Below, piece by piece: positions 5,491-40,751 of a stretch of DNA of 64,000 bases (position 1 is its first letter; each line of letters opens with the position of its first letter). Made by a program: the position numbers and the translations under genes. The notes below the pieces were generated by a model. It did no database searches, was not told the DNA's origin, and saw only the letters and a list, made by a program, of their open reading frames with translations. The stretch comes from Flavobacterium sp. SUN046 (GTDB lineage: Bacteria > Bacteroidota > Bacteroidia > Flavobacteriales > Flavobacteriaceae): contig NZ_JAPQNT010000006.1 of the NCBI RefSeq assembly GCF_028867965.1, forward strand, positions 164,274 through 228,273, given 5' to 3'.

Positions 5491-5516
5491 TTAACAATTA
5501 TTTCTTGATAACTATT

Positions 5517-5546
5517 AAATCCTCTGTTTCACACAGAGGATTTTTT
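5517..5546 (+). terminator. Rho-independent terminator of the ompA-like gene
   Basis: An 11-bp perfect stem (arms 5517-5527 and 5533-5543) with a 5-base loop, ending in a T tract. Confidence 0.8.
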
Positions 5547-5566
5547 GTATAACTTTAATAAAAAAA

Positions 5567-5968
5567 ATGGAAACTAGAGATTTAATGGTATTGGAATTAA
5601 GAGGTGAAACAATAGGAATGATTTCTAATCAATCATCACCCGAAGAATTATTTCAAAATAAAACATTACGCCCAATTTTAAAAGTCCAAAATGACTTGTT
5701 TATTGAAGTTTTTAGAAATTATGCCATAAAGCAAAAAAATGTTTTTTTTACTTTAAATCCTGAAAAGAAAAATGCTTATATTGAAAACGTAATTCAACGT
5801 GACATTAAGTTTAGAAATTCACTAAAAGGAATTGTAATTGCATTATTTACATTTGAAGAATACAATGAATACATTAAAAACTCTTCTAATTTAAACAAGC
5901 GAATGATGAACATGCTTATCGAACGATTGAAAAGTCAGTTGTTGTTGTTTGAAAATGTTGTTGCTTGA
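5567..5968 (+). CDS. Conserved hypothetical protein (Flavobacteriia)
   Basis: A 133-residue soluble protein with no signal peptide or membrane helix; mixed alpha-helical character, with a conserved-looking central block LRPILKVQNDLF and a C-terminal block LNKRMMNMLIERLK. I recall homologues in many Flavobacteriaceae, sometimes carrying the label glyoxalase, but I see no vicinal-oxygen-chelate metal ligands that would justify it. It follows the OmpA terminator by about 20 bases, so it needs its own promoter or readthrough. Function unknown. Confidence 0.65.
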   Translation: METRDLMVLELRGETIGMISNQSSPEELFQNKTLRPILKVQNDLFIEVFRNYAIKQKNVFFTLNPEKKNAYIENVIQRDIKFRNSLKGIVIALFTFEEYNEYIKNSSNLNKRMMNMLIERLKSQLLLFENVVA

Positions 5969-6049
5969 TTATAAGAAGTTTGTATTTATATCGGAACTAT
6001 CGTTTTACCTTATTTAATTTATAACCAACCTACTCTATCAAAATTAAAA

Positions 6050-6532
6050 TCATTCTGCTTTATTAACTTTTTCAGGTAATGTAGCGCCAGTATTTTCTCT
6101 AATTTCAGTATGACGAATTTCTCCTCCAGAAGTGCCTGTTTGCATAGCTAATAATACAGCAACTAATGCAACTGTAGCTGCTATGTATGAAACTAAATTT
6201 GCTTTAGCCTTATTTTTTACATTGGTATAGATTCCGAAAATTGAAATAATTCCTAATACGTAAAGCACAATTGCTAGTTTTTCGGCCATTTCTTCGTGCT
6301 CGTGTATAATTTTTCTGCCAATGTTAGGCATATCTTTAACCATATCTTCAGCTCCATCACCAGTTGCCATACTTGCAAAAGCAAATAAAGCGGCAACAAT
6401 AAACAAGCTATAAGCAGTGTTTTTTATCGTGTTATTTTTAAAAAACAATCCAAAAATAATTATCCCAAGTCCAAAAATGGTTCCTATAATTGGAAAGTGA
6501 TTTACAATCATGTGTAAGTGTGCCTCATTCAT
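6050..6532 (-). CDS. Multi-pass membrane protein, possibly DUF2231-like
   Basis: A 160-residue protein with four hydrophobic helices (about 10-30, 38-56, 84-102 and 110-128). Histidines sit near the membrane faces (HLHMIVNHFPI at the N-terminus, HEHEEMAEK in the middle, GGEIRHTEI near the C-terminus). This arrangement is reminiscent of DUF2231-type or heme-binding membrane proteins, but the assignment is tentative. It starts 11 bases downstream of the histidine kinase stop on the same strand, so it is probably the third gene of the two-component operon and may be part of its output or sensing. Confidence 0.55.
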   Translation of the reverse strand: MNEAHLHMIVNHFPIIGTIFGLGIIIFGLFFKNNTIKNTAYSLFIVAALFAFASMATGDGAEDMVKDMPNIGRKIIHEHEEMAEKLAIVLYVLGIISIFGIYTNVKNKAKANLVSYIAATVALVAVLLAMQTGTSGGEIRHTEIRENTGATLPEKVNKAE

Positions 6533-6543
6533 AATCTAATTTT

Positions 6544-7935
6544 TTAAAATTTGTCTAATATACTCAATTTAAGAGTTGTTCCGTTATTTTGTTCGCTAAA
6601 AATCTCTATTTCAATCAACAAAATAGCACACAATCGTTTAGCAATAGACAATCCTAAACCTGTTCCTTTTATTTCAGGATAATTGGTTGAGTTAGAAGTT
6701 CTATAAAATGAATTAAACACTTTGTCCAATTCATTTGGTGCAATTCCGATTCCGTTATCGACAACTTTTAAAATTGTGGTAGATTTTATTTTTTCTATAA
6801 CTACTTCTACTCTACCATTATCTTTAGAATATTTCAATGCATTAGAAATTAAATTATTTAATATTATGGAGAAAAAATAAATATCTGTTTCAACAAAATA
6901 ATCGTTAGAATAATTTTCAATAAGTGTAAGATTTCGTTTGTTTGCTTTATTTTCAAATCGTTTGATAGCATCTTTTATGCAATCATTCAAACATATTTTT
7001 TCAATATTCAGTGATTGCTTTTGGTTTTCAAATCGCGCTAACAGTAATAATTGATCAACCAAATTATTGATTCTATCAACTTCAGAAATACATAAATTTA
7101 TTTTTTGTTGGTATTCTTCTGTATTTCTTGGCTTTCTAATTAGTACTTCCAATGTGCCTTTAATTACTGCTAACGGAGTTCTAAGTTCGTGAGAAGCGTC
7201 TGAAGTAAATTGTTTTTCTCTATCAATTGTGGCTTCAATTCTATCTAACAAATTATTTATAGTTTGTGATAATATAAAAAGTTCATCTTTATTTTTGGGC
7301 AATTCAATTCTAGATTTTAAATTATCATTAGTAATTGCGTTTGAAGTTGTAATTATAGAATTAATTGGCTTAATGCTTCTGCCAGCAATAAATTGAGCAA
7401 CAAAAAACAACAATAAAAGCACAATTGGAAATAAAATAAACAGAATGTTTTTTAGATTATCAACAACATTAATAGCTTCTCCTAATGAAACAGCTACAAT
7501 TAAATAGCCACTAATTTTATTTTTAAAAAATAACGGCACCTGAATTTGTCGAACATATTTTCCTGATAATTTAAAATTGGTTTCTTTATTTTTTAAAACT
7601 TTATAATTAAAAATTAAGGTGTGTTTTTTTAAATTTTCCGATTTTTCAATAATCGTTCCAACGGAATTAGTAAGTTGCAAAAAAATTGGATCTACCGAAA
7701 CTTCATTGTGCTCGCCTTGCATCCAATCATCTTTATCTGTAAGTTGAATAGCGTTTTCTGAAATTTTAATTCGTTCAATATTTTCTTTTATTTCCGAATT
7801 GATTTCGTTATTTACATTATTAAAAACAGTTAAAGAAACAATAGTATAAATTGAAAAAAATACCACAAAAATCAACATCGCTGCCGAAATAATATAGTAA
7901 AATGCAATCCTGTTTTTTAAAGAAAATTTATTCAT
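6544..7935 (-). CDS. Sensor histidine kinase (HAMP, HisKA, HATPase)
   Basis: A 463-residue membrane-bound kinase. Transmembrane helices lie at about 10-34 and 163-185 and flank a periplasmic sensor of about 130 residues. A HAMP linker follows (about 185-240). The HisKA box SDASHELRTPLAV carries the phospho-acceptor His249. The C-terminal ATPase domain has N, G1 (DNGIGI) and G2 (GTGLGLSI) boxes. It is encoded 6 bases downstream of the response regulator. The architecture is like heavy-metal or envelope-stress OmpR-class systems (CusS type), but the signal cannot be deduced. Confidence 0.9.
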   Translation of the reverse strand: MNKFSLKNRIAFYYIISAAMLIFVVFFSIYTIVSLTVFNNVNNEINSEIKENIERIKISENAIQLTDKDDWMQGEHNEVSVDPIFLQLTNSVGTIIEKSENLKKHTLIFNYKVLKNKETNFKLSGKYVRQIQVPLFFKNKISGYLIVAVSLGEAINVVDNLKNILFILFPIVLLLLFFVAQFIAGRSIKPINSIITTSNAITNDNLKSRIELPKNKDELFILSQTINNLLDRIEATIDREKQFTSDASHELRTPLAVIKGTLEVLIRKPRNTEEYQQKINLCISEVDRINNLVDQLLLLARFENQKQSLNIEKICLNDCIKDAIKRFENKANKRNLTLIENYSNDYFVETDIYFFSIILNNLISNALKYSKDNGRVEVVIEKIKSTTILKVVDNGIGIAPNELDKVFNSFYRTSNSTNYPEIKGTGLGLSIAKRLCAILLIEIEIFSEQNNGTTLKLSILDKF

Positions 7936-7941
7936 TTTATA

Positions 7942-8601
7942 TTAATCATTCGCAATATATCCAACACCGCGAATTGTTTTTACACAATCATTATCTTTAT
8001 TAATAGTAAGTTTTTTTCTAATAGCATTCATGAAAACATCAATTACACCAGTATCATATTCAAAATAAATGTTCCAAACATTTTCAATTATTTCGGTTCT
8101 TGAGCAAACTCGTCCTTTATTTTTTATCAAATAACTTAGTAATTCAAATTCGCGCTGGGTTAATGAAATTTCCTTTTCATTGTTAAAAACTTGATGCTTA
8201 GAAAGATCTAATTTTATTGTTCCTAATGTAAGTATGTCATTTTCACTATTTCTAAAATGAATTTTAACTCGCTCCAACAATTCTTCAAAACTGAAAGGTT
8301 TTTTTATATAATCGTTTGCTCCAGCTTTCAAACCTTCGATTGTTTCTTGAATAGTATCTTTAGCCGTTAAAAATAAGATCGGTGTATTTTTATCTTTTTC
8401 TCTTATTTTTTTACAAATTTCTAAACCCGAAATTTTTGGTAACATCCAATCTAATAAAATTAAATCAACTTGTTTTGTTGTGGCAAATTCCAACCCAATT
8501 AAACCATTATTTGCAACAATAACTTCATATCCTTCTTCTTCTAATCCTTGGCTTAAAAAATTTGAAATTCCGATTTCGTCTTCAACAATTAATATTTTCA
8601 T
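7942..8601 (-). CDS. OmpR/PhoB-family response regulator
   Basis: A 219-residue DNA-binding regulator. The receiver domain (residues 1-115) has the acidic pair E7/D8, phosphorylation site Asp51 (LILLDWMLPKISG) and Lys in the KKPF motif. A winged-helix domain (about 125-219) contains the typical LTQREFELLSYLIKN and IRGVGYI segments. A TTG two codons upstream (8607) is in frame, but the ATG at 8601 directly precedes the conserved MKILIVEDE. It is the first gene of an operon with the kinase and the DUF2231-like membrane protein. Confidence 0.92.
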   Translation of the reverse strand: MKILIVEDEIGISNFLSQGLEEEGYEVIVANNGLIGLEFATTKQVDLILLDWMLPKISGLEICKKIREKDKNTPILFLTAKDTIQETIEGLKAGANDYIKKPFSFEELLERVKIHFRNSENDILTLGTIKLDLSKHQVFNNEKEISLTQREFELLSYLIKNKGRVCSRTEIIENVWNIYFEYDTGVIDVFMNAIRKKLTINKDNDCVKTIRGVGYIAND

Positions 8602-29690: not shown

Positions 29691-30299
29691 ATGCAATTTG
29701 ATCCAAATAATTTAGAACAATCCTCAATTTACAAACTACTAACTGGAATAATTACCCCAAGACCAATTGGTTGGATTTCTACAATAAGCGAAGATGGAAC
29801 AAACAATTTGGCGCCTTTTTCCTATTTTAATATGGTTAGTAGCGATCCGCCATGTGTCATGTTTTCGACTCGACGAGATAACAATACCAACAAAGACACT
29901 TTAAACAATGTATTAGCTACTAATCAGTTTGTTGTAAATATGGTTACTAAAGAAGTGGTTGAACAAATGAATCAAACCGCCGCAACTGTAACTTCTGATG
30001 TTGATGAATTTGAATTAGCCAGTCTTACACCAATTGAATCTTCGGTTATTAAACCAATGCGAGTAAAAGAAAGTTTGGTTCACCTTGAATGTGAAAAAAT
30101 TCATCATTATTTTATCAAAGATAAAGAAGGAAATGAAACGGCTTGTGTAGTTATTGGACAAATAAGGATACTACACATTGCAGATGAAATTCTTGATGAA
30201 AATTTTAAAATAAACTTAGATAAATACAATCCAGTTGCTCGTTTAGCAGGCTCGAATTACGGAACAATCGGAGAAATCTTTTCTATAAAAAGAGCTTAA
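29691..30299 (+). CDS. Flavin reductase-like domain protein
   Basis: A 202-residue FMN-binding split-barrel protein of the flavin reductase (DIM6/NTAB) family. The signature TPRPIGWISTISEDGTNNLAPFSYFN is at about 22-50. Members use NAD(P)H to reduce free flavin for a partner oxygenase, or catalyse their own reaction. It ends one base before the monooxygenase/OYE gene and so heads the catabolic unit, probably supporting a flavin step there. The monooxygenase has its own OYE reductase domain, so what this protein adds is unclear. Confidence 0.85.
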   Translation: MQFDPNNLEQSSIYKLLTGIITPRPIGWISTISEDGTNNLAPFSYFNMVSSDPPCVMFSTRRDNNTNKDTLNNVLATNQFVVNMVTKEVVEQMNQTAATVTSDVDEFELASLTPIESSVIKPMRVKESLVHLECEKIHHYFIKDKEGNETACVVIGQIRILHIADEILDENFKINLDKYNPVARLAGSNYGTIGEIFSIKRA

Positions 30300-30300
30300 A

Positions 30301-32619
30301 ATGAAAATAACAGTAATAGGTGGCGGTCCAGGCGGATTATATTTTTCGATATTAACTAAAAAAGCAATGCCCAATTGCCAAATTGACGTTTACGAACGCA
30401 ATAAACCCGATGATAGCTTTGGTTTTGGCGTTGTTTTTTCAGATGAAACTTTGGGCGAATTTTTAAAACGCGATATGCAATCGTATGAATTAATTCGAAC
30501 AAATTTTGCTTATTGGGACGATATTATTATTGCTCGTGATGGAGAAACAGTAAACATTGCCGGAAACGGATTTTGCGGTTGTTCTCGAAAAACATTACTT
30601 CAATTATTGCAACAACGCTGCCTTGAAGAAGGTGTGAATTTGCACTTCGAACAAAATGTAGACGACTTAAATCAATTCAAAGATTCCGATATAATTGTAG
30701 CTTGCGACGGAATTGGGAGCAAAATCAGAACACAATATCAATCAGAATTTGGAACCAAAATTGAATTGAAGAAAAACCGTTTCGTTTGGCTAGGTTCAAC
30801 AAAACCTTTAGATGCATTTACTTATTTTTTTAGAACAACGCCACACGGAACAATTGTTGCACATTCCTACCAATACCAGGAAGGAATGAGTACGTGGATT
30901 TTTGAATGTAGCGATGAAACCTGGCAAAAATTCAATTTTGAATTAACTAACGAACAGGATACAATTGCTAAAATTGCTGAAATTTTCAAAGAAGAACTAG
31001 ATGGTCATTCTTTGATTTCAAATAAATCACATTGGCGCCAATTTCCTCATGTTACCAACGAAAAATGGTTTCACAACAACATCGTTTTATTAGGCGATGC
31101 AAAGGCAACTGCACACTACTCTATTGGTTCGGGAACAAAATTAGCAATGGATTCTGCAATTGCTTTATCTGATGCTGTAATTGCAAATCAAAACGATGTT
31201 CAAGCTGCTTTTCAACAGTATGAAAAATCAAGAAGAAATACGGTTGAAATGATTCAGCATGCCGCTTTGGTTTCGTTAGATTGGTTTGAAAATATGGACA
31301 GAAATAACCAACATCCGTTTTATCAATTTGCTTTTGGTTGCATGACACGAGCCAAGAAAGTTACTTACGAAAATTTACGTTTACGTGATAAGTCTTTTAC
31401 TGATAAGGTTTTAAATGAGTTCAACACATTGTCTTCCCGAGCGCAGTCGAGGCACTTCAATGAAGCAATAAACGTCAATCAATCGCCTGCATTTACCAAA
31501 TTCAAATTAAGAGATTTAGAACTTCAAAATCGAATTGCAATGTCGTCAATGGGACAATATTCTGCAGAAAATGGTTTGGTTTACGATTGGCATTTTCAAC
31601 ATTATACCTCAAGAGCAATTGGAGGTTTAGGATTAATATTAACCGAAATGACTGCTATTTCAGAAAACGGACGTATTACTTTAGGTTGTACTGGTATTTA
31701 TAATGAAAATCAGATAGTTGAATGGGGGAAAATAATCGATTTTATACATAAAAATACAACAACTAAAATCGGAATTCAATTAGGTCATTCTGGACGAAAA
31801 GGCTGTTCTAAAATTCCATGGGAAGAATCATTTAAAGGAAATTCATGGGATTTAATTTCGGCATCTGCAATTCCATATAATGATAATTCAATTATTCCAA
31901 AAGAAATGAATTTGGAAGATATGAATTTGATAACTTCACAATTCGTTCAAGCCACAATAAATTCAGACAAAGCAGGATTTGACCTAATCGAATTACAAGC
32001 GCATCATGGGTTTTTATTAGCATCTTTCCTATCGCCATTAACAAATATCAGAAACGACGAATTTGGCGGAAGTATTGAAAATAGATTAAAATTTCCATTA
32101 CGAGTTTTTAACGAAATGCGAAAAGTATTTCCTGCAGAAAAACCAATGTCAGTTAGAATTTCAGCAACCGATTGGGCAGAAAACGGAATTTCAGAAGAAG
32201 ATGTAATCACAATTGCAACTGCCTTTAAAAATGCAGGAGCAGATATTATTAATGTTTCAACAGGAAATACAGTCGAGAATCAAAAGCCACAAACAGGTAG
32301 AATGTGGCAAACACCTTTTTCAGATTTGGTTAGAAATACGGTTCATATTCCAACAATTACAGCTGGTTACATTCAAGATATTGATCAAATTAACACTATA
32401 ATTTTAAACGGAAGAGCCGATTTAGTTGCGCTTGGAAGACCATTGTTATTAGATCCTAATTTTGTTAGAAACGCTCAAGCGTATGAAAATTTTCAATCTG
32501 ATGACATTCCAAAGCAATACAAAATGGGAATTTCTCATTTGTATCCGTTAAAAATTAGCGAAAGAAAACAAGTTGACGGAATGAAAAAAGCATTGAAACC
32601 GAAAAGTAATAAAAAATAA
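30301..32619 (+). CDS. Aryl-CoA monooxygenase fused to Old Yellow Enzyme domain (2-aminobenzoyl-CoA / salicylyl-CoA 5-hydroxylase type)
   Basis: A 772-residue two-domain flavoenzyme. Residues 1-370 are an FAD monooxygenase with the Rossmann motif GGGPGGLYF at 7-15 and a GD motif (VLLGDAKATAHYSIGSG) near 265. Residues about 395-760 are an Old Yellow Enzyme-type NAD(P)H:flavin oxidoreductase (FDLIELQAHHGFLLASFLSP, IGIQLGHSGRKG). The same fusion is known in 2-aminobenzoyl-CoA monooxygenase/reductase of Azoarcus evansii and salicylyl-CoA 5-hydroxylase of Streptomyces. With the adjacent ligase, thioesterase and ring-cleaving cupin I infer 5-hydroxylation of an ortho-substituted benzoyl-CoA. Residues 376-389, between the domains, are encoded by a dispersed repeat. 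Confidence 0.88.
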   Translation: MKITVIGGGPGGLYFSILTKKAMPNCQIDVYERNKPDDSFGFGVVFSDETLGEFLKRDMQSYELIRTNFAYWDDIIIARDGETVNIAGNGFCGCSRKTLLQLLQQRCLEEGVNLHFEQNVDDLNQFKDSDIIVACDGIGSKIRTQYQSEFGTKIELKKNRFVWLGSTKPLDAFTYFFRTTPHGTIVAHSYQYQEGMSTWIFECSDETWQKFNFELTNEQDTIAKIAEIFKEELDGHSLISNKSHWRQFPHVTNEKWFHNNIVLLGDAKATAHYSIGSGTKLAMDSAIALSDAVIANQNDVQAAFQQYEKSRRNTVEMIQHAALVSLDWFENMDRNNQHPFYQFAFGCMTRAKKVTYENLRLRDKSFTDKVLNEFNTLSSRAQSRHFNEAINVNQSPAFTKFKLRDLELQNRIAMSSMGQYSAENGLVYDWHFQHYTSRAIGGLGLILTEMTAISENGRITLGCTGIYNENQIVEWGKIIDFIHKNTTTKIGIQLGHSGRKGCSKIPWEESFKGNSWDLISASAIPYNDNSIIPKEMNLEDMNLITSQFVQATINSDKAGFDLIELQAHHGFLLASFLSPLTNIRNDEFGGSIENRLKFPLRVFNEMRKVFPAEKPMSVRISATDWAENGISEEDVITIATAFKNAGADIINVSTGNTVENQKPQTGRMWQTPFSDLVRNTVHIPTITAGYIQDIDQINTIILNGRADLVALGRPLLLDPNFVRNAQAYENFQSDDIPKQYKMGISHLYPLKISERKQVDGMKKALKPKSNKK
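31427..31466 (+). repeat. Short dispersed repeat inside the monooxygenase/OYE gene
   Basis: A GC-richer segment (CCCGAGCGCAGTCGAGG at its core) in a very AT-rich gene. It resembles the short intergenic repeats with the theme CCCGAGCGCAGTCGAG that I recall from flavobacterial genomes. It keeps the reading frame and encodes part of the linker between the two enzyme domains. Only one copy is in this window. Confidence 0.55.
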
Positions 32620-32628
32620 TTGCAAATT

Positions 32629-34218
32629 ATGAAGTATTACGAAGATAATTTTGCTCACAATAACTTACCTAGTTTAGACTTGCAACCAGAATATTCTTTT
32701 TTGGATTTACCCCAATTTCAGCATCCAGAAATGTTGAATTGTGTAGATAAATTATTAGATAATCACATCAAAGAAAGTCGAGGAAACAATACTTGTATAA
32801 GAACATTTGAAACAACTTGGACCTATCAAGATTTGTATGAAAAAGCAAATCAAATAGCTCATGTTTTAGTTGATGATTTAGGATTAGTTTCAGGAAATCG
32901 TGTTTTATTGCGTTCGGCGAATAATCCGATGATGGTTGCCTGTTGGTTTGCAATTATAAAAGCAGGCGGAATTGTAGTTGCAACAATGCCATTACTTCGC
33001 TCTAAAGAAATTAAGATATTTATCGATTGCGCCGAGATATCGCATGCTATATGTGACAGTGAACTTTCGGAGGAAATGAATTTAGTTAAATCAGATTATC
33101 TAAAAAAAACCAGTTATTTCAGAAATGGTGATTTAGAAACATTAATGCAATCCAAACCTAAAACGTTTACTAATTATCATTCCAAAGCAGATTCGGTTGC
33201 TTTAATAGGTTTCACTTCTGGAACTACAGGTTTGCCAAAAATGACAGCTCATTATCATAAAGATATTTTAAATATTTGTGAAGCATTTCCAAATTATGCT
33301 TTACAACCAACTCCAAATGATGTTTTTACTGGTAGTCCACCACTCGGATTTACGTTCGGTCTTGGCGGATTAGTTTTGTTTCCAATGTATTTTGGAGCTT
33401 CAACATTTTTAATCGAAAAACCAAGTCCCGATTTATTGCTTCAAGCTATTCAAGATTTTAAAATCACCATTTGCTTTACAGCTCCAACGGCTTGGCGCAT
33501 TATTACAACTAAAGTTAATGAATATGATATTTCTAGCTTACGCAAATGTATTTCTGCTGGCGAAACTTTACCATTAAAGGTTTGGCAAGATTGGTATGAT
33601 GCAACTAAATTAAAAATTATTGACGGAATTGGAGCTACTGAAATGCTTCATATTTTTATTTCATCAAACGAAGAAAATATAAAACCCGGTGCAACCGGAA
33701 AAGCAATTATGGGTTACGAAGCTAAAATTATAGATTCAAACGGAAATGAAGTTCCAAGAAATGAATCTGGAAGATTAGCTGTTCGTGGAATAACAGGTTG
33801 CAAATACCTTAATAGAGAAGAAAAACAATTAGAATATGTTGAAAACGGTTGGAACATTACAGGCGATATTTTCCGTCAAGATGAAGACGACTATTTTTGG
33901 TTTGTAGCTCGTGGCGATGATATGATAATATCTTCTGGATATAATATTGGTGCAATTGAAGTAGAATCCGTACTTTTAACCCACGAAGATATTCTAGAAT
34001 GTGCTGTTGTTGGTTTGCCCGATGAAGAACGTGGAATGCTTGTTTGCGCACATATTGTATTAAAAGATTCGTCTAAAGCATCTGATGAATTAAAAAAATC
34101 TATTCAATTGTGGTTCAAAGAAGTAGCAACACCTTATAAATATCCTAGAGAAATTATTTTTACAGATGTTTTACCTAAAACTGAAACAGGAAAAATACAA
34201 CGTTTTAAGTTAAAATAA
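32629..34218 (+). CDS. Aryl-CoA ligase (benzoate / 2-aminobenzoate-CoA ligase family)
   Basis: A 529-residue ANL-superfamily adenylate-forming enzyme. The P-loop TSGTTGLPK is at 196-204, the A5-type motif DGIGATEMLHIF near 345, the hinge region GDIFRQDEDDYFWFVARGDDMI near 425, and the catalytic lysine in TGKIQ at residue 522. These fit the benzoate-CoA ligase family, which includes anthranilate-CoA ligase. It should activate the aromatic acid as its CoA thioester for the monooxygenase upstream. A TTG at 32620 is in frame directly after the previous stop; the ATG at 32629 is more likely. Confidence 0.9.
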   Translation: MKYYEDNFAHNNLPSLDLQPEYSFLDLPQFQHPEMLNCVDKLLDNHIKESRGNNTCIRTFETTWTYQDLYEKANQIAHVLVDDLGLVSGNRVLLRSANNPMMVACWFAIIKAGGIVVATMPLLRSKEIKIFIDCAEISHAICDSELSEEMNLVKSDYLKKTSYFRNGDLETLMQSKPKTFTNYHSKADSVALIGFTSGTTGLPKMTAHYHKDILNICEAFPNYALQPTPNDVFTGSPPLGFTFGLGGLVLFPMYFGASTFLIEKPSPDLLLQAIQDFKITICFTAPTAWRIITTKVNEYDISSLRKCISAGETLPLKVWQDWYDATKLKIIDGIGATEMLHIFISSNEENIKPGATGKAIMGYEAKIIDSNGNEVPRNESGRLAVRGITGCKYLNREEKQLEYVENGWNITGDIFRQDEDDYFWFVARGDDMIISSGYNIGAIEVESVLLTHEDILECAVVGLPDEERGMLVCAHIVLKDSSKASDELKKSIQLWFKEVATPYKYPREIIFTDVLPKTETGKIQRFKLK

Positions 34219-34222
34219 AATT

Positions 34223-34284
34223 AAAAATTACGTTTACAACATTGCGAACTTTGCCTTAATCTTTGCGAACTTTGCGGTTAAATA
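34223..34284 (+). repeat. TTGCGAACTTTGC-type repeat in the ligase-GltS gap
   Basis: Two copies of TTGCGAACTTTGC (34242-34254 and 34263-34275) followed by GCGGTTAAATAACAATTATG. The ending GGTTAAATAA...AATTATG is shared with the repeat before the thioesterase gene (35981-36020), so two different repeats end in the same leader just before a start codon. Confidence 0.6.
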
Positions 34285-34290
34285 ACAATT

Positions 34291-35871
34291 ATGAGAAAAG
34301 CATTTTTAGTAATCAGTTTTACAATTCTTTCCATCACTGGATTGTTAATGTATATCAACATCAAATTCGGATTTTTACTATTGATATTCATACCATTGAT
34401 ATTAATGGGATTATACGACATGTATCAATGTAAAAAAACCATCAGAAGAAACTTTCCATTACTAGGAAGAATGCGTTATTTATTAGAATCTATTGGTCCA
34501 GAAATACGCCAATATTTTGTAGAAACCGATTTAGATGGAAAACCGTTTAACCGTCAGCAACGAAGTATTGTATACCAAAGAAGCAAAAAAGAATCTGATG
34601 CAATGCCCTTTGGAACACAATTAGATGTATATAAAGAAGGTTACGAGTGGATAAATCATAGTATTCGAGCAATTCCTTTTACTGATGTGAATGAAAATCC
34701 AAGAGTTAAAATAGGTTCAACACAATGTATGAATCCTTATTATGCAAGCATTTTTAATATAAGCGCAATGAGTTTTGGTTCGCTTAGTAAAAATGCAATA
34801 ATCGCATTAAATAATGGCGCGAAACAAGGCGGTTTTTATCATAATACCGGAGAAGGCGGACTTTCACCATACCATCTTTTAGGTGGCGATGTAGTTTGGA
34901 ATATCGGAACTGGATATTTTAGTTGCAGAACTCCAGATGGCAAATTCAGTTACGATGAATTCACAAAACGTGCTCTGTTAGACAATGTGAAAATGATAGA
35001 AATTAAATTTTCTCAAGGAGCAAAACCGGGTCATGGCGGCATTTTACCTAAAGAAAAAGTTACAGACGAAATTGCACAAATACGTTTGGTTTCAAAAGGT
35101 CAAGATATTCTTTCACCACCAAGTCATTCCGCTTTTACAACTCCTTTAGAATTAATGGATTTTGTAAAATTACTCCGAAAAGGTTCTGGTGGAAAACCAA
35201 TAGGAATGAAAATCTGTATCGGTAATAAATCGGAGTTTATTTCTATTTGTAAAGCAATGGTTCAAACTAAAACCTATCTCGATTTTATCACAGTCGATGG
35301 TGGCGAAGGCGGAACTGGAGCAGCACCTCAAGAATATTCTGATCATGTTGGAATGCCTTTGCGCGATGCATTGGCTTTTGTTTATGATTGTTTAAACGGA
35401 TTCGGAATCAAAGATCAAATCAAAATAATTTGTAGCGGAAAAGTAATCACAGGTTTTGATATCATTCGAAACCTTTCACTTGGAGCAGATTTATGCAATT
35501 CTGCACGCGGAATGATGTTTGCTTTGGGTTGCATACAAGCACTCGAATGTCATGCAAACACTTGTCCGACTGGAGTCGCAACACAAAATCCAGAATTAAT
35601 GAAAGGACTTGTGCCCGAAGAAAAAAGCGTCAGAGTAGCAAGATACCATCATGAAACTGTAAAAAGCGCAATGGATTTAATAGCATCTGCAGGCTTGGCA
35701 CATCCTGACGATGTTGATAGAACAGTTGTGAGTACTAGAGTTGATAGAACTAAAATAGAAACATTTGAAGAAACCTATCCTGAACTAAAAGTTGGATCAT
35801 TACTAGACGGAAGCACCGTTCCAAACCAGTTTTTTAGATTTTGGAAAAGAGCATCGGCAGAGAAATTTTAA
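34291..35871 (+). CDS. Membrane-anchored FMN-binding glutamate synthase-domain protein
   Basis: A 526-residue protein. Two hydrophobic helices at residues 5-25 and 27-43 are followed by the FMN-dependent synthase domain of glutamate synthase (about 115-480). The 3Fe-4S cysteines are conserved with the correct C-x5-C-x4-C spacing (C414, C420, C425), as are IKFSQGAKPGHGG and ITVDGGEGGTGAAP. It lacks the glutaminase domain, so it cannot take ammonia from glutamine itself. Its place in a catabolic cluster is unexplained: it could transfer electrons, or use ammonia released from the substrate. The family is certain, the role unknown. Confidence 0.85.
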   Translation: MRKAFLVISFTILSITGLLMYINIKFGFLLLIFIPLILMGLYDMYQCKKTIRRNFPLLGRMRYLLESIGPEIRQYFVETDLDGKPFNRQQRSIVYQRSKKESDAMPFGTQLDVYKEGYEWINHSIRAIPFTDVNENPRVKIGSTQCMNPYYASIFNISAMSFGSLSKNAIIALNNGAKQGGFYHNTGEGGLSPYHLLGGDVVWNIGTGYFSCRTPDGKFSYDEFTKRALLDNVKMIEIKFSQGAKPGHGGILPKEKVTDEIAQIRLVSKGQDILSPPSHSAFTTPLELMDFVKLLRKGSGGKPIGMKICIGNKSEFISICKAMVQTKTYLDFITVDGGEGGTGAAPQEYSDHVGMPLRDALAFVYDCLNGFGIKDQIKIICSGKVITGFDIIRNLSLGADLCNSARGMMFALGCIQALECHANTCPTGVATQNPELMKGLVPEEKSVRVARYHHETVKSAMDLIASAGLAHPDDVDRTVVSTRVDRTKIETFEETYPELKVGSLLDGSTVPNQFFRFWKRASAEKF

Positions 35872-35876
35872 TTTGA

Positions 35877-35958
35877 AGCTAATCCAGCTATCCGTTACAA
35901 TCTTTTCTTTTTTAAAGAAAAAAAGAAAAGGATTTCTACTACTATCTGGGCTAGGCTT
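35877..35958 (+). repeat. Hairpin-forming flavobacterial intergenic repeat (degenerate)
   Basis: Imperfect inverted repeat with the theme GGATTTCTACTACTATCTGGGCTA on the right and GCTAATCCAGCTATCCGTTACAA on the left, around a pyrimidine/purine mirror (TCTTTTCTTTTTTAAAGAA). It resembles a widespread Flavobacteriaceae intergenic element I know from memory. It follows the GltS-domain stop directly and could act as a transcription terminator. Confidence 0.5.
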
Positions 35959-35980
35959 ATCAGCTAAATCAAGTAATTAA

Positions 35981-36020
35981 TTAAGAATTTGTGAAAATTT
36001 GTGTAATTTGTGGTTAAATA
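35981..36020 (-). repeat. Dispersed CACAAATT-type repeat, copy 2
   Basis: The reverse complement of this stretch matches the element at 17156-17190 almost base for base (TTAA, then three ACAAATT-type units). It provides the sequence immediately upstream of the thioesterase start. Confidence 0.6.
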
Positions 36021-36027
36021 AATAATT

Positions 36028-36450
36028 ATGAACAAACCTTTTGTAAAACAAGAAAAAATTCGTTTCCAACACATCGATTACGCCGGAATAGTTTTCTATC
36101 CAAGATTTCTAGAAATGCTAAATTGCCTTGTTGAAGATTGGTTTGAAGAAGCATTAAATCGACCGTTTTCAAAAATGCACGAAACCAACGGAATCCCAAC
36201 AGTTGATTTAAAAATACAATTCAAGAATGCAGCGCGATTAGGCGAAATTCTAACCAAAAAACTTTGGGTAAATGAATTAAAAAAATCATCTGTTATTTGT
36301 GGTTTTCAGTTTGTAAATGAACTAGAGAAAGTTGTTTTAGAAGGCGAAGTTACATTGGTTAACGTTTCTTTTCAAGAAAATAAAAATGAAATTAAATCTG
36401 AAGCTTTTTCAGAAGAAATGAAAGAAAAAATTGAAAAATATAAATTATAA
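36028..36450 (+). CDS. 4-hydroxybenzoyl-CoA thioesterase-family (4HBT) hotdog thioesterase
   Basis: A 140-residue single hotdog domain with the 4HBT signature IRFQHIDYAGIVFYPRFLEMLN. Asp17 stands at the position of the catalytic Asp17 of Pseudomonas 4-hydroxybenzoyl-CoA thioesterase. In this cluster it would release the free 5-hydroxylated aromatic acid from its CoA thioester before ring cleavage. It has its own repeat-derived upstream region and is followed by an imperfect hairpin. Confidence 0.9.
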   Translation: MNKPFVKQEKIRFQHIDYAGIVFYPRFLEMLNCLVEDWFEEALNRPFSKMHETNGIPTVDLKIQFKNAARLGEILTKKLWVNELKKSSVICGFQFVNELEKVVLEGEVTLVNVSFQENKNEIKSEAFSEEMKEKIEKYKL

Positions 36451-36458
36451 TTCAAGTA

Positions 36459-36508
36459 ACACCGATTTGAGAAATCTTTAAGATTTTTAAAATTTCTTAA
36501 ATCTGTGT
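36459..36508. repeat. Imperfect inverted repeat in the thioesterase-nitrilase gap
   Basis: Arms 36459-36476 and 36491-36508 pair at 16 of 18 positions around a short A/T-rich loop. Confidence 0.6.
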
Positions 36509-36522
36509 TGAAAACATAAACT

Positions 36523-37503
36523 ATGAACTTTCCAAAATTCAAAGCCGCAGCAATCCAAACAGCTCCAGTTTTTCTAAACGTAGAAAAAACAGTTGATAAA
36601 GCAATTTCTTTTATTAAAGAAGCCACTTCAAACGGAGCAAATTTAGTAGCTTTTCCAGAGGTATTTATTGCAGGTTATCCTTATTGGAACTGGATTATGA
36701 CGCCAATTCAAGGAAGCAAATGGTACGAACAATTATACAAATCATCAGTAAAAGTTGATGATGAAGTAATGAAACCTTTGTTTCAAGCAGCAAAAAATTT
36801 TAATTGTCATATTGTTATCGGAATTAATGAACGTGGCGATAGCTTTGGAGAAATTTACAATACCAATTTAATTATTGACAACAACGGAGTTCTAATTGGA
36901 AAACACCGAAAATTAGTTCCGACTTGGGCAGAAAAACTTACTTGGACATCAGGTGATGGATCATCTTTAAAAGTATATAATACCGAAATTGGACCAATTG
37001 GAACCTTAGCTTGTGGCGAAAATACCAATACTTTAGCACGATTTACTCTTTTATCACAAGGAGAATTAATACATATTGCCAATTACATTTCGCTACCAGT
37101 TGCACCTCCAGATTATGATATGGCAGAGGCTATAAAAATTAGAGCAGCAGCACATTCATTTGAAGGTAAACTATTTACAATTGTATCCTGTTCCACAATT
37201 TCGCAAGAAATAAAGGACGCTTTGCGAAATGATGTACCAAATGTTGATGAGTTATTAACTAGAAAAAAATCAGCATTTTCAGGTATAATTGGTCCAAATG
37301 GAGCTGCGGTTGGAACGCCATTAATCGATGATGAAGGAATTGTTTATGCAGATATTGATTTAGAAAAATGTATTCAACCCAAACAAATGCATGATATTCT
37401 AGGACATTATAATAGATTTGATATTTTTGATTTGAGAGTTAACATCGCTCCTACTCGAAAAATCACGTTTATTGACAATCACGAGGAATTTAATAAAAGA
37501 TAA
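36523..37503 (+). CDS. Nitrilase-superfamily carbon-nitrogen hydrolase
   Basis: A 326-residue enzyme with the nitrilase catalytic triad Glu46 (FPEVFI), Lys130 (HRKLVPTWAE) and Cys164 (ACGENTNTLARF). The motif CGEN differs from the CWEN of classical aliphatic nitrilases but occurs in the nitrilase branch as I recall it; the family also contains amidases. In the inferred pathway it could hydrolyse the amide formed when a 2-amino acid ring is opened (maleamylpyruvate or maleamate), releasing ammonia. A nitrile substrate is also possible. Enzyme family certain, substrate inferred. Confidence 0.85.
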   Translation: MNFPKFKAAAIQTAPVFLNVEKTVDKAISFIKEATSNGANLVAFPEVFIAGYPYWNWIMTPIQGSKWYEQLYKSSVKVDDEVMKPLFQAAKNFNCHIVIGINERGDSFGEIYNTNLIIDNNGVLIGKHRKLVPTWAEKLTWTSGDGSSLKVYNTEIGPIGTLACGENTNTLARFTLLSQGELIHIANYISLPVAPPDYDMAEAIKIRAAAHSFEGKLFTIVSCSTISQEIKDALRNDVPNVDELLTRKKSAFSGIIGPNGAAVGTPLIDDEGIVYADIDLEKCIQPKQMHDILGHYNRFDIFDLRVNIAPTRKITFIDNHEEFNKR

Positions 37504-37505
37504 AA

Positions 37506-37575
37506 AAACCATATAAGGCATATAAGTACATTTAAGATTTTTAACTTATATTTTCTTATATGCCTTATATGGTTT
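37506..37575. repeat. Large perfect inverted repeat between nitrilase and dioxygenase genes
   Basis: Arms 37506-37526 and 37555-37575 are perfect reverse complements over 21 bases, with a 28-base AT-rich loop. The theme TATAAGGCATATAAG recurs in my memory as a flavobacterial intergenic repeat. It occupies almost the whole gap. Confidence 0.75.
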
Positions 37576-37589
37576 AAAAATATAACACT

Positions 37590-38690
37590 ATGAACGACAA
37601 TCATTCAGATAACCAATTAGGACGAGCAAGAGTTCAAGATTCGCCAGAACTTATAGCCTATTACAAAGAACTCGAAACCCTTGGCGCAGGCGCATTATGG
37701 ACAGTTGCCAACGACATCGAGCCTTGGGAACCAAGAAGTTCATCTGTTCCAATGCTTTGGAAATATGATGAATTGCGTGATTTAGTTTTAAAATCATCCG
37801 AATTAGTTACACCAGAACAAGCAGGAAGACGTGTTGTTTATTTGGTAAACGATAAACGAAAAGATGTTTCAGCTGCAGTTGGTTGGTTATACACCGGAAT
37901 TCAAGTTACAAAACCTGGCGAAAGCACATCTGCTCATAAACACAAAGCATCAGCACTACGATTTATTATGGAAGGAGAAGGCGGTTATACTGTTGTTGAC
38001 GGAAATAAAATAACATTTGAAATCAATGATTTTGTAATCACACCCAATTCTACTTGGCACGAACACGGTTGTGATGCTAACGGTAAAACCTGTATTTGGC
38101 AAGATGGCTTGGATATTCCGCTAATAAATGCGCTTGAAGCGAATGATTATGCTGTTTATGATGGCAATCAACCTATCGAAAAACCAACTAATCAATTACC
38201 GAATTCGTTTGCTACATCTGGATTAATTCCAGCCGATTTAGTTTGGAACAAACCTTATTCACCATTATTCAAGTATTCTTGGAAAAATGTTTATCCAGCT
38301 TTAATTGAATCTTTAAACGTCAATAAACTTAATATTTATGACGGAATAATTATGAAATATTCTAATCCGTTAACTGGTGGTCACGTTATGCAAACAATGG
38401 GCGCAGCAATGCAATTATTGCCAGCAGGTTTCAAAGGAAAAGCACACAAACATACTGGTTCGTTTGTGTATCAATGTGCGAAAGGAAAAGGATTTACTAT
38501 CATTAACGGACAACGATTCGATTGGAAAGAAAGAGATATTTTTTGTGTTCCATCTTGGGCTTGGCACGAACATCACAATTTATCTGAAACTGAAGATGCT
38601 TGTCTATTTCAATTCAATGATTTACCTGTGATTGAAAGTTTAGGATTGTATCAAGAAAAAGAATTAGAAGAAAATAATGGACATCAGTAG
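37590..38690 (+). CDS. Gentisate 1,2-dioxygenase-like bicupin ring-cleaving dioxygenase
   Basis: A 366-residue bicupin Fe(II) dioxygenase. The N-terminal cupin has the iron ligands His116, His118 and His157 (SAHKHK and WHEHG). The C-terminal cupin retains KAHKHTGSFVYQ and WAWHEHHN. The family contains gentisate, salicylate and 1-hydroxy-2-naphthoate dioxygenases, which open the ring between the carboxyl-bearing carbon and its ortho substituent. With gentisate the product is maleylpyruvate. With 5-hydroxyanthranilate it would be the amide maleamylpyruvate, which fits the neighbouring nitrilase-type hydrolase. Which substrate is used is not proven. Confidence 0.88.
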   Translation: MNDNHSDNQLGRARVQDSPELIAYYKELETLGAGALWTVANDIEPWEPRSSSVPMLWKYDELRDLVLKSSELVTPEQAGRRVVYLVNDKRKDVSAAVGWLYTGIQVTKPGESTSAHKHKASALRFIMEGEGGYTVVDGNKITFEINDFVITPNSTWHEHGCDANGKTCIWQDGLDIPLINALEANDYAVYDGNQPIEKPTNQLPNSFATSGLIPADLVWNKPYSPLFKYSWKNVYPALIESLNVNKLNIYDGIIMKYSNPLTGGHVMQTMGAAMQLLPAGFKGKAHKHTGSFVYQCAKGKGFTIINGQRFDWKERDIFCVPSWAWHEHHNLSETEDACLFQFNDLPVIESLGLYQEKELEENNGHQ

Positions 38691-38723
38691 GTTTAAAAAA
38701 AATAAACAATTAAACGAAATAAA

Positions 38724-38903
38724 ATGAAAAAAATACCATTACTAGGAATTGCAATTGCGATATTATTTATAATGTTGGGTGTATATCTTACTTCAAAGGA
38801 AAATCAATTAGCAGTAATTATTGGTTATGCTAACATTGTTTTCTTTTCAGGGCTAATCATTTTTGCTATTTTAAAATTACTGTCAAATAGAACTAGAACA
38901 TAA
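38724..38903 (+). CDS. Small 59-residue membrane protein inside the catabolic cluster
   Basis: ATG at 38724, stop at 38901-38903: MKKIPLLGIAIAILFIMLGV at the N-terminus, a short polar loop, then a second hydrophobic helix (about 29-50) and a basic tail. No family recognised. Its stop overlaps the ATG of the FAH-family gene by one base (TAATG), so the two are likely translationally coupled. It is not obviously a transporter; perhaps a membrane anchor or regulator. Confidence 0.65.
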   Translation: MKKIPLLGIAIAILFIMLGVYLTSKENQLAVIIGYANIVFFSGLIIFAILKLLSNRTRT

Positions 38904-39811
38904 TGAAACTACTTACCTACAAAACAAACGATACCGAATCAAGATTAGGTTTCCTACACAACAATCAAGTAATTGATATGGAAGATTTTGGTGAGATATC
39001 CAATTTTCCATTACCCAATGATATGTTGGAATTAATTGATATGGGATTTGAAATCATATCAGAAATTACTGAAATGGTTTCCGAAACGCCAGAAAATTTC
39101 TTCGAAGAGATTTCGTATGATATGAATGAAGTGACAATCCTTGCTCCTATTGAAAAACCTCGTAAAAACATCATCGGAATTGGTTTAAATTATACTGAAC
39201 ACGTTGCCGAAAGCGCTCGAACATTAGATACAACTGGAAAATTACCCCAAAAACCAATTATTTTTTCAAAACCTCCAACAACAGTTACTGCTACAAATAC
39301 CGAAGTAATTAAAAACACAAAACTAACTTCACAATTGGATTGGGAAGTAGAATTGGCTGTTGTAATTGGCAAAAAAGGAAAATATGTTCCAAATGCAGAT
39401 GCCATCGATTATGTTTTTGGATACACCGTAATAAACGATATTTCAGCCCGTGATTGCCGTCGTGAAGGCCAATGGATTGTTTCTAAAGGTCAAGATACTT
39501 TTGCACCAATGGGACCAATTTTAGTCACCAAAGATGAAATCGAAAATCCACACAACTTGAATTTATCTCTAAAAGTAAATGGTATAGAAAAACAAAATTC
39601 AAATACCAAATTTTTATTATTCAACATCAACGATTTAATTGAAGATTTGAGCATCATTTTCACTTTAGAACCTGGTGATATAATTGCAACAGGAACTCCA
39701 TCTGGTGTTGGCGCAGGAAGAAATCCTCAAGAATGGTTGTATGATGGTGATATAATGGAAGCAACAGTTGAAGGAATTGGAACTATTGTGAATACCGTAA
39801 AAGAAGTTTAA
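38903..39811 (+). CDS. Fumarylacetoacetate hydrolase (FAH)-family hydrolase
   Basis: A 302-residue metal-dependent C-C hydrolase. The FAH fold begins near residue 78, with metal ligands Glu148 and Glu150 (DWEVELAVV) and Asp179 (NDISARDCR), His100 as candidate base, and the conserved GDIIATGTPSGVGAGR near 260. The class includes maleylpyruvate and fumarylpyruvate hydrolases, which split the ring-cleavage product into pyruvate and a C4 acid. Its place between dioxygenase and maleate isomerase fits maleylpyruvate (or maleamylpyruvate) hydrolysis. Confidence 0.9.
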   Translation: MKLLTYKTNDTESRLGFLHNNQVIDMEDFGEISNFPLPNDMLELIDMGFEIISEITEMVSETPENFFEEISYDMNEVTILAPIEKPRKNIIGIGLNYTEHVAESARTLDTTGKLPQKPIIFSKPPTTVTATNTEVIKNTKLTSQLDWEVELAVVIGKKGKYVPNADAIDYVFGYTVINDISARDCRREGQWIVSKGQDTFAPMGPILVTKDEIENPHNLNLSLKVNGIEKQNSNTKFLLFNINDLIEDLSIIFTLEPGDIIATGTPSGVGAGRNPQEWLYDGDIMEATVEGIGTIVNTVKEV

Positions 39812-39838
39812 ATAAACATTAAATACAGATTAATAACA

Positions 39839-39867
39839 ATGAGATTGCTTCGTGCCTCGCAATGACA
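39839..39867 (+). repeat. GAGATTGCTTCGTGCCTCG-type dispersed repeat upstream of maiA
   Basis: A GC-rich block in an AT-rich gap, resembling the short repeats containing GATTGCTTCGT...CCTCGCAATGAC that I know from many Bacteroidota genomes. It runs up to within 3 bases of the maiA ATG. Confidence 0.55.
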
Positions 39868-39869
39868 AT

Positions 39870-40619
39870 ATGAAAAAATACAGAATAGGACAAATAGTTC
39901 CATCAAGTAATGTAACGATGGAAACTGAAATACCAGCAATTTTTCGTTCCAGAGAAACCATCTTGCCAGAACGTTTTACGTTTCATAGCAGCAGAATGCG
40001 CATGAAAAAAGTAACCAAAGAGGAACTTGAAGCTATGGATGCCATGAGTTTAAAATGTGCTCAAGAATTATCTGATGCTCATGTAGATGTTATGGGTTAC
40101 GCTTGTTTAGTAGCAATCATGAGTATGGGACGCGGTTATCATTGTGTTTCAGAAGTGAATTTGCATCAAGAAACAATTGCCAACGACTTCCCTACTCCAA
40201 TTGTAACTTCTGCTGGAGCTTTGATTAATGGATTGAAAGTTTTGGGAGCAAAACAAATTTCAATAATCACACCTTACATGCGTCCGCTGACTGATATGGT
40301 TGTGGATTATATTGAACATCAAGGCATTAAAATCAAAGAAAGTATTGCGCTTGAAATTCCTGATAATTTGGAAGTTGCGGCTCAAAATCCGTTAAATTTA
40401 TTAGAAATTTACAAACAATTGGATTTGACAGATATTGATGTTTTAGTAGTTTCGGCTTGTGTGCAAATGCCCTCTTTAGAGGCTATTGATTTGATTCAGG
40501 CAGAAATTGGAATTCCAGTTACTTCTGCTGCCGTTTGTACAACTTATGAAATGATGAAAAAACTCGGAATAGAAGCTAAATCAGTAATTGGTGGTGAATT
40601 ATTAAACGGAAAATATTAA
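39870..40619 (+). CDS. maiA: Maleate cis-trans isomerase
   Basis: A 249-residue cofactor-free isomerase of the Asp/Glu racemase superfamily that converts maleate to fumarate. The N-terminus KYRIGQIVPSSNVTMETEIP and the segment FHSSRMRMKKVTKEEL match what I remember of MaiA proteins of Alcaligenes and Pseudomonas. The paired catalytic cysteines are Cys79 (GYACLVA) and Cys197 (SACVQM), 118 residues apart as in the family. A GTG at 39852 is in frame but lies inside a dispersed repeat, so I use the ATG at 39870. It would feed the ring-derived C4 acid into the TCA cycle. Confidence 0.92.
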   Translation: MKKYRIGQIVPSSNVTMETEIPAIFRSRETILPERFTFHSSRMRMKKVTKEELEAMDAMSLKCAQELSDAHVDVMGYACLVAIMSMGRGYHCVSEVNLHQETIANDFPTPIVTSAGALINGLKVLGAKQISIITPYMRPLTDMVVDYIEHQGIKIKESIALEIPDNLEVAAQNPLNLLEIYKQLDLTDIDVLVVSACVQMPSLEAIDLIQAEIGIPVTSAAVCTTYEMMKKLGIEAKSVIGGELLNGKY

Positions 40620-40631
40620 TAAATAGAAATT

Positions 40632-40751
40632 ATGAAAAATTTAATTGCATTATTTGCTGGAATATTTGCAGCAAGAAAAACAAGATTTGGTTGTTTTGGT
40701 TCTGTTATAGTTTTTATTGTAGTTTATTATCTTGTAAAAAGAATTTTATAA
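40632..40751 (+). CDS. 39-residue hydrophobic protein at the end of the catabolic cluster
   Basis: ATG at 40632: an N-terminal hydrophobic stretch, a basic middle (AARKTRFG), then a C-terminal membrane helix (CFGSVIVFIVVYYLV) and the tail KRIL. It begins 12 bases after the maiA stop and ends exactly at the terminator hairpin. It may be a real small membrane protein or a chance ORF; its position favours the former. Confidence 0.45.
   Translation: MKNLIALFAGIFAARKTRFGCFGSVIVFIVVYYLVKRIL

Follow-up and report, generated by a model that had tools for sequence, protein, structure and literature searches.

A 64,000-nucleotide stretch of the Flavobacterium sp. SUN046 genome (assembly GCF_028867965.1, contig NZ_JAPQNT010000006.1, positions 164,274 to 228,273; hereafter the window) carries on its plus strand, at 29691-40619, a block of nine open reading frames (ORFs) that were called and then assigned to families by Pfam and NCBIfam searches. 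The families, their order, their contexts in other genomes and a set of residue changes are observed, and from these we infer each substrate and reaction: with a probability of about 0.7, the cluster encodes an oxygen-dependent route of anthranilate catabolism in which a coenzyme A (CoA)-dependent start is joined to gentisate-type ring cleavage.

In the proposed pathway an aryl-CoA ligase would convert anthranilate to anthraniloyl-CoA, and the monooxygenase half of an FAD monooxygenase/Old Yellow Enzyme (OYE) fusion would hydroxylate C5 to give aromatic 5-hydroxyanthraniloyl-CoA, the ring escaping hydrogenation because the OYE half is remodelled. A 4HBT-type thioesterase would release free 5-hydroxyanthranilate, which a gentisate-1,2-dioxygenase-like bicupin would cleave between C1 and C2 to maleamylpyruvate, with the former ring nitrogen now in an amide. 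An FAH-family hydrolase would split maleamylpyruvate into pyruvate and maleamate, a C-N hydrolase of the nitrilase branch would turn maleamate into maleate and ammonia (amide hydrolysis could precede or follow the C-C hydrolysis), and an isomerase would convert maleate to fumarate. This scheme, including the fate of the nitrogen, had been put forward in an initial annotation of the window; it is upheld by gene order, genomic contexts and the association of the C-N hydrolase, with the reactions themselves still predicted.

The arrangement forms one conserved unit and is not due to chance. A collection of genomes was scanned with the bicupin as query, and the best 80 of 578 confirmed relatives were taken. 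By title, 49 are Flavobacterium, 20 bear other Flavobacteri- names and six are Bacteroidetes; Myroides, Paenimyroides, Chryseobacterium, Sphingobacterium and Bifidobacterium account for one each, and the last three are genomes binned from metagenomes, with doubtful labels. Gene order was counted in the 60 loci reaching at least 9.5 kb upstream and at least 3.5 kb downstream of the bicupin; the remaining 20 were too short and were left out. The order fusion-ligase-4HBT-nitrilase-bicupin-FAH-maleate isomerase was kept, on a single strand, in 59 of the 60 long loci. The flavin reductase gene was present in 58, and in L075 the sequence ends where this gene would be. The glutamate-synthase-like gene was found in only 23 (within the block in 22, immediately after it in L053) and is therefore an optional passenger. 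One flavobacterial metagenome-assembled genome (L036) has the bicupin, FAH and isomerase genes alone together; the upper half is missing at this locus and other genes lie upstream. Outside the block no steady family was found among the neighbours: the commonest turned up in 14 of the 81 sequences compared, many of which were truncated.

The same linkage was seen at wider range. In a draw of 395 genomes from the phylum the bicupin (E 1e-60) was detected in six, and the fusion (E 1e-150) in the same six plus one genome of another family; among 199 congeners, 86 have the bicupin. An independent distribution of the genes had been named as one outcome that would speak against the pathway. Among Flavobacterium relatives they stay together (59/60), and elsewhere the lower half is often found without the fusion. 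All seven families listed in the initial annotation are indeed on one strand in one block, which also includes the flavin reductase and glutamate-synthase-like genes it had overlooked; the block ends not at 40751 but at 40619, where the last ORF stops, and the ORFs flanking it on either side are on the minus strand.

The lower core of nitrilase, bicupin, FAH hydrolase and maleate isomerase is also present in Proteobacteria and in one actinomycete. A plasmid search gave 17 records with the bicupin at 54-63% identity, followed by a gap, the ordinary gentisate dioxygenases reaching no more than 41%. Fourteen of the 17 loci were read, those left out being three Novosphingobium records; in two of these three, the match positions put fusion and bicupin at most 5 kb apart. 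The order nitrilase-bicupin-FAH-isomerase was found in Ruegeria pomeroyi, Leisingera, Sagittula, Sulfitobacter THAF37 and Shinella (L106), and Caballeronia SBC1 has the order IorAB-thioesterase-fusion-bicupin-FAH-nitrilase-isomerase. Thioesterase genes are also present in the clusters of Ruegeria, Caballeronia, Sagittula, Sulfitobacter THAF37 and Shinella (L106). Nitrilases of at least 59% identity occur in nine plasmid records, all of which carry an R. pomeroyi-type bicupin; in the nine loci read, nitrilase and bicupin belong to the same gene group. It had been remarked that no described pathway of this composition was known in Bacteroidota; the lower core, however, is not peculiar to that phylum, and it often occurs without the fusion.

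Some of these loci deserve separate mention. L003, L104, L105 and L106 combine the lower core with IorAB and a thioesterase and have no adjacent fusion; they possibly represent a route for compounds already bearing a 5-hydroxyl group, such as 5-hydroxyindoles. On Leisingera plasmid pBMJM1_2 (L107, 5242-8200) the bicupin and the isomerase match in several pieces, and this copy therefore looks broken; plasmid pBMJM1_6 (L011) holds another copy of the core, with the bicupin matching in one piece.

Several lines of evidence bear on the substrate. As had been suggested, the ligase was compared with characterised enzymes, and its nearest relatives are anthranilate-CoA ligases: the best match in the Protein Data Bank (PDB) is anthranilate-CoA ligase 4wv3 (276 bits, against 214 bits for benzoate-CoA ligase 2v7b), and it is 48% identical over 527 aa to the ligase of plasmid pAL1 of Arthrobacter sp. 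Rue61a. We take the latter to be ARUE_113p00220 because of its place beside the fusion; that protein had anthranilate-CoA ligase activity on expression (PMC3534580; the literature is cited from excerpts throughout). In Embleya the lower core follows genes for tryptophan 2,3-dioxygenase (TDO; 368 bits, below the TIGR03036 cut-off of 390.7) and kynureninase (248.1 bits against a cut-off of 246.4), together with a gene for a regulator similar to AndR, which belongs to anthranilate dioxygenase (200.7 bits; the cut-off of 350 was not reached). Genes annotated merely as "cyclase" adjoin the core in Shinella and lie 0.9 kb from it in Caballeronia; they match isatin hydrolases 5nna (336 bits) and 5nmp (461 bits), respectively, and a 60% homologue lies about 5 kb from the core in Sagittula. 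Taken together, the genomic evidence leans clearly to anthranilate and away from salicylate.

Isatin hydrolase produces isatinate, isatin being a breakdown product of indole. In Proteobacteria isatin hydrolase, thioesterase and the indolepyruvate-oxidoreductase-like IorAB recur with the bicupin core. IorAB, a 2-oxoacid oxidoreductase, may turn isatinate into anthraniloyl-CoA, which would explain the missing ligase in the Caballeronia group. The genome of the window gave no match to isatin hydrolase at E 0.001, in a search run without a positive control genome. It does encode TDO, kynureninase and 3-hydroxyanthranilate dioxygenase, the kynurenine-pathway genes that the initial annotation had proposed to look for, and anthranilate could reach the pathway from kynurenine or from outside. 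Kynureninase was rejected as a marker tying the cluster to tryptophan: with 189 of 199 congeners carrying it, it has no discriminating power in this genus.

The nitrogen argument rests on the company kept by the bicupin. A C-N hydrolase is encoded near it in 12 of the 14 plasmid loci, nine being orthologues of the window nitrilase and three belonging to a family with the motif CWEN, whose members are about 70% identical to each other and stand in where the nitrilase with the motif CGEN is missing. By comparison, such a gene was found in one of eight loci of canonical gentisate dioxygenases (gtdA), chosen by us among bicupin matches at 41% or less, and in none of nine other fusion loci (Fisher p 0.0015 for 12/14 versus 1/8). 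The 14 loci include two from Leisingera and two from Shinella and so are not fully independent. The lone C-N hydrolase at a gtdA locus (L117, 4139-4900) sits among genes annotated for the nitrogen starvation response and is apparently unrelated. Two hydrolase families serving one bicupin clade argue for a C-N bond in the cleavage product, and no such bond would arise from salicylate; the earlier idea that an amide explains the presence of the hydrolase is borne out to this extent.

The assignment of the hydrolase itself was revised. It had been called a nitrilase-type amidase, and the sequence places it in the nitrilase branch and not among known amidases: its best PDB matches are nitrilases and cyanide dihydratases, although it does not reach the cut-off of the Nit6803 nitrilase model TIGR04048 (225 bits against 502). 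It is 64% identical to its Ruegeria orthologue. Among 100 matching pieces above 50% identity (repeats included), 99 have CGEN around the catalytic cysteine, whereas nitrilases generally have CW at this site.

The bicupin belongs to a clade that is distinct from canonical gentisate dioxygenases. It scored 300 bits against the gentisate 1,2-dioxygenase equivalog TIGR02272, short of the cut-off of 442, and 493 bits against PDB 3bu7, to which it is about 58% identical; the R. pomeroyi member of the clade is 3bu7 itself, residues 1-374 aligning without difference. His116, His118 and His157 of the N-terminal cupin, which form the three-histidine iron site, are invariant in the alignments. All 12 R. 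pomeroyi-type members aligned have the motif WQDGLD and, in their C-terminal cupin, a second histidine metal motif, whereas among eight canonical gentisate dioxygenases the second histidine motif is present in two and WQDGLD in none, its place being taken by WLD(G/A/C)LD. A second metal site in the R. pomeroyi structure is mentioned in the literature (PMC10306065, PMC4019311), and 5-nitrosalicylate dioxygenase is described as inactive towards 5-hydroxyanthranilate (PMC10306065). For the R. pomeroyi-type clade, no report of a test with 5-hydroxyanthranilate was found in the open-licence literature.

A ring-cleaving route needs an aromatic product, and the OYE half of the fusion was therefore inspected for changes. 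The fusion is 43% identical to that of Rue61a; its best NCBIfam model, NF006101 (salicylyl-CoA 5-hydroxylase), gave 970 bits and the cut-off of 1078 was not reached. It was compared with 23 reference fusions, among them that of Rue61a but not the A. evansii protein; nine are from loci whose context was read (for L135 the scan covered two neighbours, which are not pathway genes) and 14 are database proteins without context. In numbering of the window fusion, C452, H566, A568 and Q656 are invariant in the references, all 23 of which have the pair His566/His569. The window fusion has A452, Q566, H568 and N656, and retains His569. In YqjM-type enzymes a histidine pair, which aligns with ELHMAHGY of 3hf3, binds the substrate carbonyl.

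In the loci read, the residue at position 566 goes with the neighbourhood. Gln566 is present in the fusions read beside a bicupin, namely those of 68 relatives' loci, the window, two further genomes and L002, L004 and L005 (repeats removed), while His566 is present in those read elsewhere: L107 (about 18 kb from the bicupin), L108, L109, L111, L112, L132, L133, L134, L135 and L141. Beta-oxidation genes lie beside the His-type fusions of L108, L109, L111, L132, L134 and L141; a scan limited to the nine window ORFs revealed none.

Columns were scanned with rows grouped by clade and not by residue 566, a grouping that would be partly circular. Of 186 columns invariant in the 23 references, four were altered in at least 60% of the rows of all three ring-cleavage lineages, which are Flavobacterium, the sphingomonads (Novosphingobium) and a Cupriavidus-Caballeronia group; all four lie within the OYE half. 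By chance 0.13 such columns are expected (0.21 for the OYE half alone), and none of 200,000 random draws gave four. In the three clades, respectively, Cys452 became Ala in 19/19, 46/46 and 11/13 rows, His566 became Gln in 19/19, 30/46 and 13/13, and Ala568 became His or Gly in 19/19, 44/46 and 13/13; Gln656 became Asn or Glu in 78/78 rows. Positions 452, 568 and 656 pass all nine threshold settings, and 566 passes only the three 60% settings. Beyond the window's own lineage, the loci read from the changed lineages are two betaproteobacterial ones and one from a sphingomonad (L002, L004, L005), all with the fusion beside the bicupin.

In a tree of 25 rows with the four positions blanked, Gln rows fell in three places: Flavobacterium, Novosphingobium, and Cupriavidus-Caballeronia nested among His-type rows. 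A single clade of Gln566 rows was rejected (p-AU 6e-20, quick tree). Just three His-to-Gln changes were rejected as well, since a 102-row tree with 46 sphingomonads needs 12. The sphingomonad OYE pocket (sequences P0241-P0360) is unusually variable, with Q/H/M at 566, F/S/N/T/Y at 571 and further variation elsewhere. The OYE motif expression is missed by 57 of 120 sphingomonad sequences, in 55 of which the HG pair no longer precedes Tyr or Phe; in the alignment His569 is kept in 46/46 representatives. This variability looks as if the reductase half were decaying.

The residue changes fit a switch from ring reduction to formation of 5-hydroxyanthraniloyl-CoA. The known enzyme yields 5-hydroxyanthraniloyl-CoA under limiting NADH (Langkau 1990, cited in PMC3534580), so that weakening of the reductase half could suffice for the product this pathway needs. 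A more far-reaching idea, which we hold tentatively and at somewhat under even odds, is that a ring-reducing fusion became ring-hydroxylating at least three separate times through the same four OYE positions, routing anthraniloyl-CoA to direct cleavage of 5-hydroxyanthranilate, from which the nitrogen would depart in amide form. The altered OYE half would perhaps act as a tautomerase restoring the aromatic ring, and Proteobacteria would be fed from isatin, through isatin hydrolase (isatinate) and IorAB, straight to anthraniloyl-CoA.

A number of observations weigh against the anthranilate route as drawn. A fusion lies beside the bicupin in only three of the 14 plasmid loci (L002, L004, L005); the other 11 have none adjacent or, in L107, one 18 kb off, so the hydroxyl group there must have another source, and in five of six further records searched, Embleya's included, there is no fusion at all. 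In such loci the substrate may arrive already hydroxylated (e.g. from 5-hydroxyindoles) or receive its hydroxyl group by other means. PDB 3bu7 is titled gentisate 1,2-dioxygenase, and the clade may thus prefer gentisate. The hydrolase resembles nitrilases rather than amidases, and the stretches read at L002 and L006 contain no C-N hydrolase. Residue 566 is labile among the 46 sphingomonad representatives (Q 30, H 15, M 1). At two His-type loci, L112 (Rue61a, 3998-7988) and L133 (Rhodococcus, 2972-7998), genes for FAH, a small cupin, a thioesterase and RidA are listed and no beta-oxidation genes, so that beta-oxidation is not the sole setting of the His type; these clusters are perhaps another way to process the hydroxylated or reduced ring. 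Finally, the nine-ORF block contains no transporter and no regulator.

Were salicylate the substrate, it would pass through salicylyl-CoA, gentisyl-CoA, gentisate and maleylpyruvate to maleate and pyruvate. Every one of these steps is covered by genes in the cluster, the best NCBIfam model of the fusion is named for salicylyl-CoA and the bicupin family is that of gentisate dioxygenase, as the title of 3bu7 reflects. This route would, however, leave without a task a nitrilase conserved in 59/60 loci and matched by a C-N hydrolase in 12/14 plasmid loci. The contexts elsewhere include isatin hydrolase and TDO-kynureninase, with no salicylate gene noted in the 14 loci (three of them unannotated), and the ligase is nearest to anthranilate-CoA ligases; we consider salicylate unlikely. 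Slightly less probable is that the nitrogen argument is right and the substrate different, the nitrilase acting on a true nitrile or the pathway serving a related 2-amino acid such as a substituted anthranilate. The nitrilases and cyanide dihydratases among the best PDB matches of the hydrolase, and the substitution of a CWEN-type family in L005, L008 and L009, would suit this proposal; the position of the hydrolase among ring-cleavage and post-cleavage genes and the replacement of CW by CGEN argue against it.

Alternatively, the fusion might work as in Azoarcus evansii, hydroxylating and hydrogenating the ring ahead of beta-oxidation, and the bicupin group might be a mere neighbour for another compound. 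The same fusion and ligase families do occur in Azoarcus-type clusters of Ruegeria, Sagittula and Paracoccus, and the 11 plasmid loci with a bicupin group and no adjacent fusion point the same way. Yet the window block lacks the SDR, enoyl-CoA hydratase and acyl-CoA dehydrogenase genes typical of that type, the fusion and bicupin groups stand together in 59/60 loci of Flavobacterium relatives, and the OYE pocket is altered, which makes this the least probable of the alternatives. The anthranilate route with direct cleavage of the hydroxylated amine remains our preferred reading.

Judged from sequence, the cluster very likely encodes a route for anthranilate whose CoA-dependent start is that of one known pathway and whose ring cleavage is that of another. 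SdgC of Streptomyces sp. WA46 is not known to have an OYE half. The salicylyl-CoA/gentisate route of that strain (SdgC is named in PMC6460240) likewise proceeds through a CoA ester, 5-hydroxylation and gentisate-type cleavage of the free acid, but with oxygen instead of nitrogen and without a known C-N hydrolase. The 2-aminobenzoyl-CoA pathway of A. evansii and Rue61a has the same start, an anthranilate-CoA ligase and a monooxygenase/OYE fusion; in that pathway hydroxylation and hydrogenation of the ring give 2-amino-5-oxocyclohex-1-enecarbonyl-CoA, which enters beta-oxidation (PMC4539516, PMC3534580), whereas the window cluster has ring-cleavage genes next and a changed OYE pocket. GDOsp of R. 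(Silicibacter) pomeroyi (3bu7) is of the same clade as the window bicupin, with two histidine metal motifs and the same nitrilase-bicupin-FAH-isomerase order, and differs in being named from gentisate. In the nicotinate (nic) pathway maleamate is converted to maleate and then fumarate, the maleamate amidase NicF being of the isochorismatase family. The window cluster has a homologous maleate isomerase (4fq7, 320 bits; 2xec, 190 bits) and would share these final steps, with an amidase candidate of the nitrilase branch instead; maleylpyruvate hydrolase is among the weaker PDB matches of the FAH hydrolase.

The breakdown routes of tryptophan, indole, quinaldine and nitrobenzoate meet in anthranilate (PMC4539516). 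Routes from anthranilate through 5-hydroxyanthranilate to gentisate in Nocardia opaca (Cain 1968) and from indole through isatin and anthranilate to gentisate in Alcaligenes In3 (Claus and Kutzner 1983) have been proposed (both cited in PMC4539516/PMC6221969), and no assigned genes for them were found in the open-licence literature. In these proposals gentisate is the substrate of ring cleavage, whereas the prediction for the window cluster is that the amine itself undergoes cleavage. An excerpt of a 2018 review states that a functional gene for the gentisate pathway was not revealed (PMC6221969), and tryptophan degradation via anthraniloyl-CoA monooxygenase/reductase has been named as a route omitted for lack of knowledge (PMC9007349). 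In titles and abstract openings of the open-licence literature no description of this gene set was found; subscription papers lie outside this scope, and an earlier description is therefore possible. The cluster is a complete candidate gene set for the 5-hydroxyanthranilate/gentisate branch proposed in 1968 and 1983. If the proposal is true, the substrate of the structurally solved 3bu7 may be 5-hydroxyanthranilate, a nitrilase-branch enzyme acts as an amidase, and whether the ring is reduced or cleaved depends on parallel changes in one pocket; the database name salicylyl-CoA 5-hydroxylase for these fusions may mislead.

Table. Genes of the block (window positions) and accessory genes at other bicupin loci (positions within each locus)
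Feature	Position	Strand	Remarks
Flavin-reductase-like FMN protein	29691..30299	+	PF01613, 85 bits; inside 58/60 long relatives
FAD monooxygenase/OYE fusion	30301..32619	+	PF01494 and PF00724 in a single ORF; predicted anthraniloyl-CoA 5-monooxygenase
Aryl-CoA ligase	32620..34218	+	Predicted anthranilate-CoA ligase; likely start ATG 32629
FMN-binding glutamate-synthase-like protein	34291..35871	+	PF01645, 288 bits; present in 23/60 long relatives
4HBT-type thioesterase	36028..36450	+	PF13279; 59/60 long relatives; predicted 5-hydroxyanthraniloyl-CoA hydrolase
Nitrilase-branch C-N hydrolase	36523..37503	+	PF00795; CGEN at catalytic cysteine; predicted maleamate (or maleamylpyruvate) amidase
Gentisate-1,2-dioxygenase-like bicupin	37590..38690	+	Predicted 5-hydroxyanthranilate 1,2-dioxygenase
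FAH-family hydrolase	38903..39811	+	PF01557, 224 bits; 60/60 long relatives; predicted C-C hydrolase freeing pyruvate
Maleate cis-trans isomerase	39852..40619	+	PDB 4fq7, 320 bits; 60/60 long relatives; likely start ATG 39870
CWEN-type C-N hydrolase	L005 7920-8846; L008 11048-11977; L009 16062-17009
Isatin hydrolase/IorAB/thioesterase sites	L004 2251-6503, 13858-14637; L106 4502-8716, 12924-13721; L104 4480-8696, 18083-18874

The listed starts of the ligase and isomerase ORFs are probably a few codons too early. A Bacteroidota promoter pattern matched 13 times against nine expected, and none of the matches is directly upstream of the cluster. The flavin-reductase-like gene is a frequent companion of the bicupin, weaker homologues (29-36%) being located near it in L005, L006, L008 and L009; its presence is unexpected in that the fusion should reduce its own flavin.

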